Of a stretch of 59,677 bases of DNA, positions 11-11,158 are shown in pieces. Each line of letters starts with the position of its first letter. Positions within the stretch are counted from its first letter, which is position 1. The translations under genes and the position numbers were made by a program. Origin of the DNA: Acidobacteriota bacterium (lineage in GTDB: Bacteria; Acidobacteriota; Terriglobia; UBA7540); NCBI GenBank assembly GCA_902812415.1, contig CADDZJ010000015.1, forward strand, positions 1 through 59,677, written 5' to 3'. The notes below the pieces were generated by a model. That model was not told the DNA's origin. It did not search any database and saw only the letters and a list, made by a program, of their open reading frames with translations.

Positions 11-135
11 ACTGGGGTTTACAAATTATAGTGACAGCATTTTCTGTAGCGCCGGTGTCCTCACCGGCGTTTTTCGGCGCTGAGGACAGCGCCGCTACAA
101 TCCGCGTTGTCACTATAATTTGTAATTCTCAATAG
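11..135. repeat. Cloverleaf palindromic repeat, copy A
   Basis: About 125 bp with 18-bp perfect terminal inverted repeats (19-36 against 108-125). Inside is a TGTAGCG/CGCTACA stem enclosing two hairpins, CGCCGGTG-tcct-CACCGGCG and GGCGCTG-agga-CAGCGCC. The two tetraloops are reverse complements of each other. Near-identical copies lie at 22471-22596 and 42873-42999, an inverted degenerate copy at 39625-39729 and a half copy at 37606-37631. This copy sits just past the stop codon of the neighbouring minus-strand gene and could also end its transcript. Confidence 0.85.
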
Positions 136-9135: not shown

Positions 9136-9164
9136 TTGATCAAGATTCAACTTTCGTGTAATGT
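9136..9164 (+). promoter_or_regulatory. Candidate promoter of the cysteine leader
   Basis: TTGATC at 9136-9141, with either TGTAAT (9157-9162, spacing 15) or TAATGT (9159-9164, spacing 17) as the -10 box. The transcript would begin near 9169-9172, about 10 nt before the first ATG of the leader ORF and about 45 nt before the last. Prediction from sequence only. Confidence 0.45.
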
Positions 9165-9178
9165 AGTCTTTTCAAGCG

Positions 9179-9286
9179 ATGGCTTCGGAAATCGTCAATT
9201 CGATGAAGAACGGCATGGCCTGTAGGTGTTGTTGTTGTCGTGCGACTGTTAGCGGCCAGCGTTCTTCGGAGATGACTGACTCGTAA
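9179..9286 (+). CDS. Cysteine-rich leader peptide of a transcription attenuator
   Basis: A 35-codon ORF with in-frame ATGs at 9179, 9203 and 9215. From 9215 the peptide is 23 residues and begins MACRCCCCRATVSG. Five of six successive codons are Cys, all TGT (9221-9223 and 9227-9238), a density not expected by chance. The stop is TAA at 9284-9286. The ORF lies just before a terminator and the TauE-cysH pair, so its translation should sense charged Cys-tRNA rather than make a functional product. Segment 1 (9209-9220) of the leader fold overlaps the start of the Cys run, so a ribosome stalled there covers it. Which ATG is used is unclear; none has a strong ribosome-binding site. Confidence 0.82.
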   Translation: MASEIVNSMKNGMACRCCCCRATVSGQRSSEMTDS

Positions 9287-9355
9287 GCTTCGTTCCTAAG
9301 TTTATCTTCTGAACGCCCGCTAATGGCAAACCCGTTAGCGGGCGTTTTTATTTTT
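9209..9355 (+). promoter_or_regulatory. Cysteine-responsive attenuator (segments 1-4)
   Basis: Four RNA segments give exclusive folds. Segment 1 (9209-9220) pairs with segment 2 (9254-9263) through TGGCC/GGCCA and flanking pairs with two single-base bulges. Segment 2 extended (9249-9263) pairs with segment 3 (9312-9323) through TTAGCGG/CCGCTAA and GCGTT/AACGC with a CCA bulge: the antiterminator. Segment 3 pairs with segment 4 (9335-9346) as a perfect 12-bp terminator stem followed by TTTTTATTTTT. A ribosome stalled on the Cys codons (9221-9238) covers segment 1, frees segment 2, allows 2:3 and gives readthrough. Completed translation lets 1:2 and 3:4 form and terminates. Confidence 0.82.
9312..9355 (+). 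terminator. Attenuator terminator upstream of the TauE permease gene
   Basis: Perfect 12-bp stem, AACGCCCGCTAA (9312-9323) with TTAGCGGGCGTT (9335-9346), 11-nt loop, then a T-rich run to 9355. It lies 81 bp before the permease start and 25 bp after the leader stop codon. Confidence 0.88.
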
Positions 9356-9435: not shown

Positions 9436-10212
9436 ATGACAGTCCCCATACTTGGTTTCATCACCGGAATCTTGATTGGCCTGACGGGCACTGGCGGCGG
9501 CTCCGTCCTCACCCCGCTGCTCCTGCTCTTTACACCCTATCCGGCCCTGGTTGTGATTGGCACAGATTTGGCGATGGGCGTTGTCACCAAGCTGGTCGGT
9601 TTTGTGGAGCACTGGCGGCTGGGCAAAATTTACTGGCGTCTGGCCGGATACATCATTCTGGGAAGCCTGCCTGGATGTCTGCTGGGAATTTTGCTGATTC
9701 ATTTCCTGAAGGATCATTTGAGCGCGGCTCATCTTGATGCCAGCCTGAAAGTGTTTGTGGGGCTGGCGCTGTTTGCGGCCTCGCTCTCGTTGCCTTACGT
9801 GCGCAAACGCAAGATGGGGCTTGCGGGGAAAAGGCCCGCCGCGCCTCAATCGCATTCAACCCCCTGGAGCTTCCTCGCTGTGGGAGCCGTGGTCGGTTTT
9901 CTGGTTGCAGTCACCTCCGTTGGCAGTGGAAGTCTTCTGATGGTGTTCATGCTGATGATGGCGCCGCTGCCCATTGCGGAACTGGTGGGGACGGACATCA
10001 TGCTGGGCCTTGCCACCACGGTGCTGGCCGGTTCTCTGCATTTCTGGATGGGGCATTTCAATCAGCATCTCTTTCTTGGACTTGTCGCTGGGTCGCTGCC
10101 GGGAGTTCTGGTGGGAAGCTGGTTTTCGCACCGCATTCCGGAGCGCTATTTCGGCTGGCTGCTCAGCATTCTCTATTTTTCGCTGGGAGCGCGTCTTCTG
10201 CTGAGTTGGTGA
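9436..10212 (+). CDS. TauE/SafE family sulfur-compound permease
   Basis: A 258-residue polytopic membrane protein with about eight hydrophobic segments in two related halves. Each half opens with the family's glycine-rich motif: GLTGTGGGSVLTP near residue 16 and VTSVGSGSLLMVF near residue 160. TauE/SafE proteins carry sulfite, sulfonates or related anions across the inner membrane, direction often unproven. Control by a cysteine attenuator and pairing with cysH argue for uptake of an inorganic sulfur source rather than export. The ribosome-binding site is poor: GAGAGG ends 15 bases before the ATG. It lies 133 bp upstream of cysH. Confidence 0.87.
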   Translation: MTVPILGFITGILIGLTGTGGGSVLTPLLLLFTPYPALVVIGTDLAMGVVTKLVGFVEHWRLGKIYWRLAGYIILGSLPGCLLGILLIHFLKDHLSAAHLDASLKVFVGLALFAASLSLPYVRKRKMGLAGKRPAAPQSHSTPWSFLAVGAVVGFLVAVTSVGSGSLLMVFMLMMAPLPIAELVGTDIMLGLATTVLAGSLHFWMGHFNQHLFLGLVAGSLPGVLVGSWFSHRIPERYFGWLLSILYFSLGARLLLSW

Positions 10213-10345: not shown

Positions 10346-11095
10346 ATGGCTTTCAACATTTCCGACTTAAACGCCTGGGCTGAGCGGAACGCGAACCTTC
10401 ATCCGCGTGACATTCTCGCTTTTGCCCTGGAGCATTTTTCGCCCCGTCTTGGCGTCAGCTTCAGCGGCGCTGAGGACGTTGTCCTGGTCGATATGGCCGT
10501 CAAGCTGGGCGGAAAATTTCAGGTGTTTTCGCTGGATACAGGAAGACTCCATCCCGAAACGTATCAATTCCTGGAGAAAGTCCGCGAGCACTATGGCATC
10601 ACCATTGATATCTTCTTTCCTCGCTCCGAGGCAGTGGAGGAATTTGTCCGCGCCAAGGGCATGTACTCCTTTTATCGTGATGGCCACAAGGAATGCTGCT
10701 CGCTGCGCAAAGTTGAGCCGCTCCGCCGCGCTCTGAGCAAGCTGGATGCCTGGGTCACCGGCCAGCGACGCGATCAGAGCCCGTCAACCCGCGCCCAGGT
10801 GGCCGTGGCCGAAATTGACGCCGCTTTTTCCAATGGCCGCCAGCTTGTGAAGTTTAACCCTCTGGCGAACTGGACTTCCAGACAGGTCTGGAACTATATC
10901 CGCGAATATGACGTGCCGTACAATCCGCTGCACGAGCGCGGGTTTATTTCGATTGGCTGCGAGCCTTGCACGCGTCCGGTGCTGCCCGGCCAGCATGAGC
11001 GCGAAGGGCGCTGGTGGTGGGAAGACGCCACGAAGAAGGAATGCGGCTTGCACGCCGGAAACCTGGTGGAAACGGTGGCCGTCGCCGCTTCATAA
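10346..11095 (+). CDS. cysH: Adenylylsulfate (APS) reductase, [4Fe-4S], thioredoxin-dependent
   Basis: A 249-residue enzyme reducing APS (or PAPS) to sulfite in assimilatory sulfate reduction. The nucleotide-binding segment is [13 protein letters not shown] (residues 38-50). Cys117-Cys118 in [11 protein letters not shown] and Cys205/Cys208 in GCEPCTRP are the four cluster ligands that separate APS reductases from cluster-free PAPS reductases. The catalytic Cys is residue 233 in KKECGLH. Context agrees: a TauE-type permease and a cysteine attenuator lie upstream. No sulfate adenylyltransferase or sulfite reductase gene is in the window. A 49-bp palindrome follows the stop. Confidence 0.93.
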
Positions 11096-11109
11096 TTGTA
11101 GTTGTTCCT

Positions 11110-11158
11110 GGGATGGTCGCAGACATGGCGTACAGTACGCCATGTCTGCGACCATCCC
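11110..11158. terminator. Perfect 49-bp palindrome between convergent genes
   Basis: Arms of 24 bp (11110-11133 and 11135-11158) are exact reverse complements around one central A. It lies between cysH (+) and the transpeptidase gene (-), whose ends are 78 bp apart, so a bidirectional terminator is the simplest reading. There is no long T-run on either side, and the perfection of the arms suggests recent origin or a repeat element. Confidence 0.6.

Follow-up and report, generated by a model that had tools for sequence, protein, structure and literature searches.

Genes and leader elements at the locus

The window is the whole stretch of DNA that was analysed, 59,677 nucleotides in length. In it, a promoter-like motif and a short open reading frame with a run of cysteine codons are followed by sequences that can form alternative hairpins and then by two genes of sulfur assimilation. 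The features are listed below, with the last one given no strand.

9136..9164, +, sigma-70-like promoter (-35 TTGATC at 9136-9141, N17, -10 TAATGT at 9159-9164), read from the sequence
9179..9286, +, leader ORF of 35 codons, MASEIVNSMKNGMACRCCCCRATVSGQRSSEMTDS and stop (ATG at 9179, stop codon at 9284-9286), near-leaderless
9205..9220, +, segment 1 (protector), which pairs with 9254-9267; from folds and covariation
9221..9238, +, regulatory codons TGT AGG TGT TGT TGT TGT, coding for Cys-Arg-Cys-Cys-Cys-Cys; from the sequence
9249..9267, +, segment 2 (5' arm of the antiterminator), in which 9249-9263 pairs with segment 3 and 9254-9267 with segment 1
9312..9323, +, segment 3 (3' arm of the antiterminator or 5' arm of the terminator); from folds and covariation
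9335..9346, +, segment 4 (3' arm of the terminator); from folds and covariation
9345..9355, +, T-tract of the intrinsic terminator, TTTTTATTTTT, that is T5-A-T5; from the sequence
9436..10212, +, TauE/SafE-type permease (tauE), 258 aa, the first controlled gene (PF01925, E 5.2e-45)
10346..11095, +, APS/PAPS reductase CysH, 249 aa, the second gene (NF002537 and TIGR02055 above cut-off; PF01507)
11109..11158, perfect inverted repeat 3' of cysH (fold -50.2 kcal/mol, arms of about 23 bp)

The genes tauE and cysH lie on a common strand with a gap of 133 nt between them and appear to be co-transcribed. There is no T-tract at the inverted repeat behind cysH, which could possibly be an operon-end or transcript-end structure or a repeat element.

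The motif TTGATC-N17-TAATGT falls below the minimum match number of a generic promoter scan of the window and was not listed by it. From the position of this promoter, transcription is predicted to start at about 9171, which is about 8 nt 5' of the leader ATG. No Shine-Dalgarno sequence is present at this ATG (9179). Two ATGs inside the ORF, at 9203 and 9215, were weighed as possible leader starts and rejected; an ATG beside the Cys run is not conserved (it is absent in G034, G008, G024, G003, and G016), and the first start codon is kept in relatives. The Cys codons, at 9221, 9227, 9230, 9233, and 9236, are TGT in all five cases, with a single AGG between. An earlier note on this DNA had described such a short ORF, coding for Cys-Arg-Cys-Cys-Cys-Cys with TGT throughout, and it was found where the note had placed it.

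Alternative pairings in the leader RNA

Three pairings can form in the leader RNA, 1:2, 2:3, and 3:4. They are mutually exclusive, and segment 3 is common to the antiterminator and the terminator. The Cys codons follow immediately on segment 1. The pairing of segment 1 with segment 2 had been given as 9209-9220 with 9254-9263, which is correct and extends to 9205-9220 with 9254-9267. In the antiterminator, TTAGCGG(CCA)GCGTT of segment 2 (9249-9263) forms 12 bp with AACGCCCGCTAA (9312-9323). In the terminator, 9312-9323 pairs perfectly with 9335-9346. These two alternative partners of 9312-9323, the second of them in a perfect hairpin with a T-run, had been proposed in the earlier note and were confirmed, and the terminator stem reaches 16 pairs in the folds before T5-A-T5. 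The intrinsic terminator as a whole spans 9311-9355. The T-A/G-T tract is present in most homologues.

The leader RNA has a folding energy of -72.7 kcal/mol (z = -4.69 relative to dinucleotide shuffles, 0 of 200 being as good). The 1:2 fold has -34.1 kcal/mol (9171-9268) and 3:4 has -28.0 kcal/mol in a fold that mimics a ribosome at the stop codon. When a ribosome on the Cys codons is mimicked and segment 4 is still unmade, the 2:3 fold has -25.7 to -30.0 kcal/mol. In the full-length RNA the terminator has the lower energy of the two structures (-37.8 versus -31.3 kcal/mol for the antiterminator), and the switch must therefore work kinetically, as that of trp does.

The front edge of a ribosome lies about 12 nt downstream. 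When the A site holds the last Cys codon, this edge would be at about 9248, and segment 2 starts at 9249. The modelled folds for each ribosome position agree with the earlier proposal that the Cys codons are placed for a stalled ribosome to cover segment 1 and free segment 2. Segment 2 is inside the ORF, and the stop codon is about 16-20 nt beyond it. Because of this distance, a ribosome waiting at the stop codon would cover segment 2 only partly, and repression would thus depend on the 1:2 hairpin together with the presence of the ribosome in the antiterminator loop, a point against the attenuator reading.

Conservation in the family

The attenuator was explored in 39 genomes of the window's family; most of the genomes compared are uncultured MAGs. 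Homologues near cysH were found by blastn in many genera, mostly through the terminator. The relatives share one plan, a promoter, a short ORF with a Cys run, a terminator, and then a sulfur gene. A covariance model built from 22 sequences scored above 80 bits in 29 of the 39 genomes, from 13 genera, with one match per genome. These matches precede tauE, sat, or cysH. The first gene behind the attenuator is tauE in some genera, sat in others, and cysH in G003, which is of the same genus as the window. The genes called sat have frames that start with the ATP-sulfurylase-like PHGGKLINR, and a homologue in another family (L311) matches NF003166. Beyond the 29, sulfite reductase is preceded by a Cys leader and a terminator in three members of the family (G004, G014, and G017). 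What is left of cysH in G001 is a fragment that aligns over 28 residues and then meets a stop, and just two Cys codons survive in the decayed leader of this genome. G027 possesses cysH with no leader and in an unrelated gene context, which counts against the attenuator reading. Weak matches of the covariance model outside the family were mostly bare terminators (model positions 112-156) and were left uncounted.

In the 22 family members in which both promoter and ORF were found, a comparable promoter occupies the position that it has in the window, and the predicted 5'UTR is 5-11 nt long (median 8). The leader peptides of these members have 31-37 codons, their Cys pair begins at codon 17-20, and a Shine-Dalgarno-like sequence is absent in 20 of the 22. 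The short predicted 5'UTR and the lack of Shine-Dalgarno-like sequences point to a probable translation of the leader from a nearly leaderless mRNA, the starts being predicted ones. The choice of Cys codon differs strongly between the family leaders (78 TGT to 5 TGC) and the genes of the window (23 to 83; Fisher p = 1.7e-25).

Covariation of the three stems

The earlier note had proposed aligning related genomes, and the alignment shows that the Cys run and the three alternative stems are kept in relatives, with covariation. Duplex energies of arms from the same genome (cognate) were compared with those of arms exchanged between genomes (swapped), with one sequence per genus from 11 genera. 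For the 1:2 arms, cognate pairs had -29.3 and swapped pairs -24.4 (0 of 20,000 permutations). The 2:3 arms gave -29.1 versus -24.0, and the distal helix of 2:3 alone -11.4 versus -8.2, each with 0 of 20,000 permutations. The 3:4 arms gave -29.9 versus -27.4 (7 of 20,000).

The fixed columns of the alignment point the same way. In the antiterminator columns 81% of the cells pair, compared with 30-48% in slid versions, and seven pairs are changed on both sides, a number reached in 1 of 500 shuffles. The terminator columns are 93% paired. Less favourable is the distal antiterminator helix, with a modest 69%, because the register shifts between genera. When relatives were folded without segment 4, segment 3 paired in an antiterminator with the stretch that follows the Cys run. 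This stretch also fits its own terminator arm better than those of others at 39 Acidobacteriota loci and at 14 loci of other phyla (0 of 20,000 in each), although both sets contain close relatives and are less strict than the test with one sequence per genus. The conservation and covariation in relatives are the decisive evidence and rule out a chance origin of the attenuator in the window.

Distribution in the class and in other phyla

A looser pattern, in which three TGT codons are followed by 81-111 bases and then by a terminator-like tail (GGNNTTTTTRTTTT), was present in 40 of the 299 genomes of the class, and its reversed form in 0 of 299. A Cys leader, a hairpin, and a gene of sulfur assimilation or sulfur transfer were present at 26 of the 28 loci inspected in the class. 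The targets at these 26 are sulfite reductase, CysD, Sat, TauE, the siroheme synthase CysG, and a sulfurtransferase. It had been argued from the window that the controlled genes make physiological sense, and this holds class-wide, with sulfur-assimilation genes (tauE, sat, cysH, sir, cysD, and cysG) behind the element. Some lower-scoring matches of the covariance model, both in this family and in others, proved to be a second Cys leader, which stands before sulfite reductase (domains PF01077 and PF03460). The window's own genome (G000) has such a second attenuator before sulfite reductase, at C5:36399-36516 (-), with the leader peptide MANTRIQSMEHQGCCCSCCCPISPAVG and the same alternative folds as in the window.

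Two pattern matches, L307 and L308, have no sulfur gene downstream and are repeat-like, and were discarded. They (G032 C96 and G036 C20; also G032 C237) represent a repeat that holds TGTTGTTGT and a strong terminator-like hairpin. It has at least two copies in G032, unlinked to sulfur genes.

In a sample of the whole phylum, the looser pattern was rare outside the class. Other Acidobacteriota classes gave three matches besides the window, of which one looked real; it lies before a TauE-like permease in G477 and its sequence is identical to that of L178. A wider scan covered 84,980 species genomes. Among the matches listed, similar leaders were found in Bacteroidota before cysteine synthase, CysE, CysH, or CobA/CysG-type genes, in Ignavibacteria before cysteine synthase, and in an Anaerolineae MAG before a gene of the cystathionine gamma-synthase family. 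Several other matches were discarded, as they had no leader ORF, had a weak hairpin, or were inside longer ORFs. In the Bacteroidota class that was sampled the pattern is sparse, with matches in 3 of 198 genomes.

Further leaders were also seen. In an Anaerolineae MAG (L187, 4894-5020), a Cys-rich leader (CACCCC...) precedes a gene like those for binding proteins of sugar-type ABC transporters and not a sulfur gene; this may be chance or may point to an uptake system. A Cys-rich leader with a terminator, MKFITLRMHCCPCECSFGSRDRYADG, was found at G222 C29:1473-1625 (-) (L136). The genes downstream of it, named from reading only, encode a small unknown protein, a YezD-like protein, and a selenium-binding or methanethiol-oxidase-like protein. 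Candidate His attenuators are present in another family of the class, at G119 C4:296762-296888 (-) (L149) and G134 C7:102496-102621 (+) (L150), with runs of His codons (for example MSVRLHHRGHHHHHATSVLA) and a GC-rich terminator before hisI/hisG/hisD-like genes. A candidate Phe attenuator, at G207 C130:18619-18754 (+) (L138), has a Phe/Tyr-rich leader (MKTLFYRYCFAFTYRPEPF...) and a terminator, and it precedes a chorismate mutase / prephenate dehydratase-like pair.

Comparison with known systems

No Rfam family was found at the curated threshold in the window or in 16 homologous loci. Below threshold, Trp_leader (RF00513) reached 20.1 bits, with a cut-off of 41 bits, over the same architecture in the window. 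The trp, his, leu, and ilv attenuators likewise have a leader peptide rich in the end product, 1:2, 2:3, and 3:4 pairings, and a terminator before biosynthetic genes. Unlike the trp type, the window has Cys codons, genes of sulfate assimilation, and a predicted 5'UTR of about 8 nt with no Shine-Dalgarno sequence. Every feature of trp- and his-type attenuators that can be looked for in sequence is present: a leader with codons for the product, a terminator, an antiterminator, a 1:2 protector, and genes of the same pathway.

A leader with Cys codons and an intrinsic terminator has already been proposed before cysS, so the kind has a precedent. This is uORFC-8-2 of Rhodobacterales, a computational proposal for an attenuator that responds to charged tRNA-Cys; it too combines tandem Cys codons in a short ORF with stems and a U-run at the end (PMC8632094). 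It differs, as far as its description allows comparison, in having two Cys codons, mostly UGC, and in its CysRS target and its place in the alphaproteobacteria (PMC8632094). The window thus departs from it in gene, phylum, and number of Cys codons. The leaders of the window's family have two to many Cys codons, almost all UGU, as well as sulfate-assimilation targets and a covarying antiterminator.

Mycobacterial Cys leaders had been named in the earlier note as a precedent. That part stands in so far as such leaders exist: they encode Cys-run peptides before sulfur genes and are leaderless or near-leaderless (PMC1262725, PMC4633059), and they are reported to be cysteine-responsive in papers that cite Canestrari et al. 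2020 (PMC13236596). As a model for a terminator-based switch the precedent does not carry over. These leaders are actinobacterial, have no conserved terminator (PMC1262725; see also PMC4633059), have Cys codons near the stop, and are described as translational attenuators in PMC13236596, citing Canestrari 2020. The window differs from them in its strong, conserved intrinsic terminator. The ilvB1 uORF of Mtb is similar in that transcription attenuation works through a uORF, an antiterminator, and a Rho-independent terminator, but it concerns branched-chain amino acids and not cysteine (PMC13236596).

Attenuators with an associated or predicted function were described as nearly missing from Acidobacteria (PMC2965389). 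A search confined to the open-access literature found cysteine attenuators reported neither for Acidobacteriota nor for Bacteroidota. For Acidobacteriota, this is in line with the earlier note, which knew of none.

Proposed mechanism and alternatives

The switch before tauE-cysH is best read as a ribosome-mediated transcription attenuator that senses Cys-tRNA, with a probability of roughly 0.9, which supports the interpretation in the earlier note. Read directly from the sequences are the promoter-like motif, the ORF with its codons, the target genes, and the three pairings with their covariation; the events proposed to join them are as follows. RNA polymerase would start about 8 nt 5' of the leader ATG, and a ribosome would follow it. 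When charged Cys-tRNA is plentiful, the ribosome would pass the Cys codons toward the stop codon. Segment 1 could then re-pair with segment 2, and segment 3 with segment 4, and transcription would end at the T-tract. When Cys-tRNA is scarce, the ribosome would stall on the TGT run and cover segment 1. Its front edge would be at or before the start of segment 2, leaving segment 2 free for segment 3 before segment 4 is made. Once 2:3 has formed, the terminator would be blocked and tauE-cysH transcribed.

Other sensors could work on the same hairpins. The nascent Cys-rich peptide might itself sense a metal, oxidants, or sulfide and arrest the ribosome, with charged Cys-tRNA not being the signal. 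Cys runs could bind metal or be oxidised, and a TauE/SafE-type permease, which is one class of target, could answer sulfite or sulfide. Such a peptide sensor is nevertheless quite unlikely. The number and spacing of the Cys residues vary, from two upward (CCC, CCCC, CRCCCC, CCCTCC, CCCACCC), and the residues flanking them are poorly conserved between families. The strong bias to TGT speaks for decoding and against a peptide motif, and a large part of the cysteine pathway is represented among the targets (sat, cysD, cysH, sir, cysG, cysE, and cysK). A ligand-binding riboswitch or a protein-controlled terminator would produce a similar-looking terminator/antiterminator switch, and the Cys-rich ORF would then be there by chance. 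The relatives share the reading frame of the leader and not a conserved aptamer, and with Trp_leader as the best sub-threshold Rfam match, the chance of this is close to negligible.

The leader could also act on translation or on Rho-dependent termination, as proposed in mycobacteria, with the hairpins being incidental. The polycysteine leaders there are called translational attenuators (PMC13236596, citing Canestrari 2020), they are without conserved terminators (PMC1262725), and leaders that are near-leaderless or leaderless are common to both groups (PMC4633059 for mycobacteria). Against this stand the strong intrinsic terminator with its T-tract and the covarying antiterminator, both conserved here. 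In addition, the start of tauE is about 80 nt 3' of the T-tract and outside the hairpins, so it is free of sequestration by them. An action of this type is accordingly given very little weight, and attenuation of transcription through Cys-tRNA remains the preferred reading.

Significance for sulfur metabolism

It appears fairly likely that Cys-codon attenuation is a widespread and previously unrecognised control of sulfate assimilation and cysteine synthesis. It would be regulon-wide in a class of Acidobacteriota and occur also in Bacteroidota, Ignavibacteria, and Anaerolineae, with a near-leaderless form and a strong preference for wobble-read TGT in the window's family. This raises the question of whether sensitivity to charged tRNA-Cys is tuned by the almost exclusive choice of TGT, a codon read by wobble. 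The breadth and completeness of the switch are what make it interesting. If the reading is true, ribosome-mediated transcription attenuation would be extended to cysteine with a complete, covarying switch, and a simple signature would be at hand that locates this arrangement ahead of cysteine genes in other phyla. Acidobacteria would gain a cysteine regulon that is controlled by the progress of the translating ribosome.
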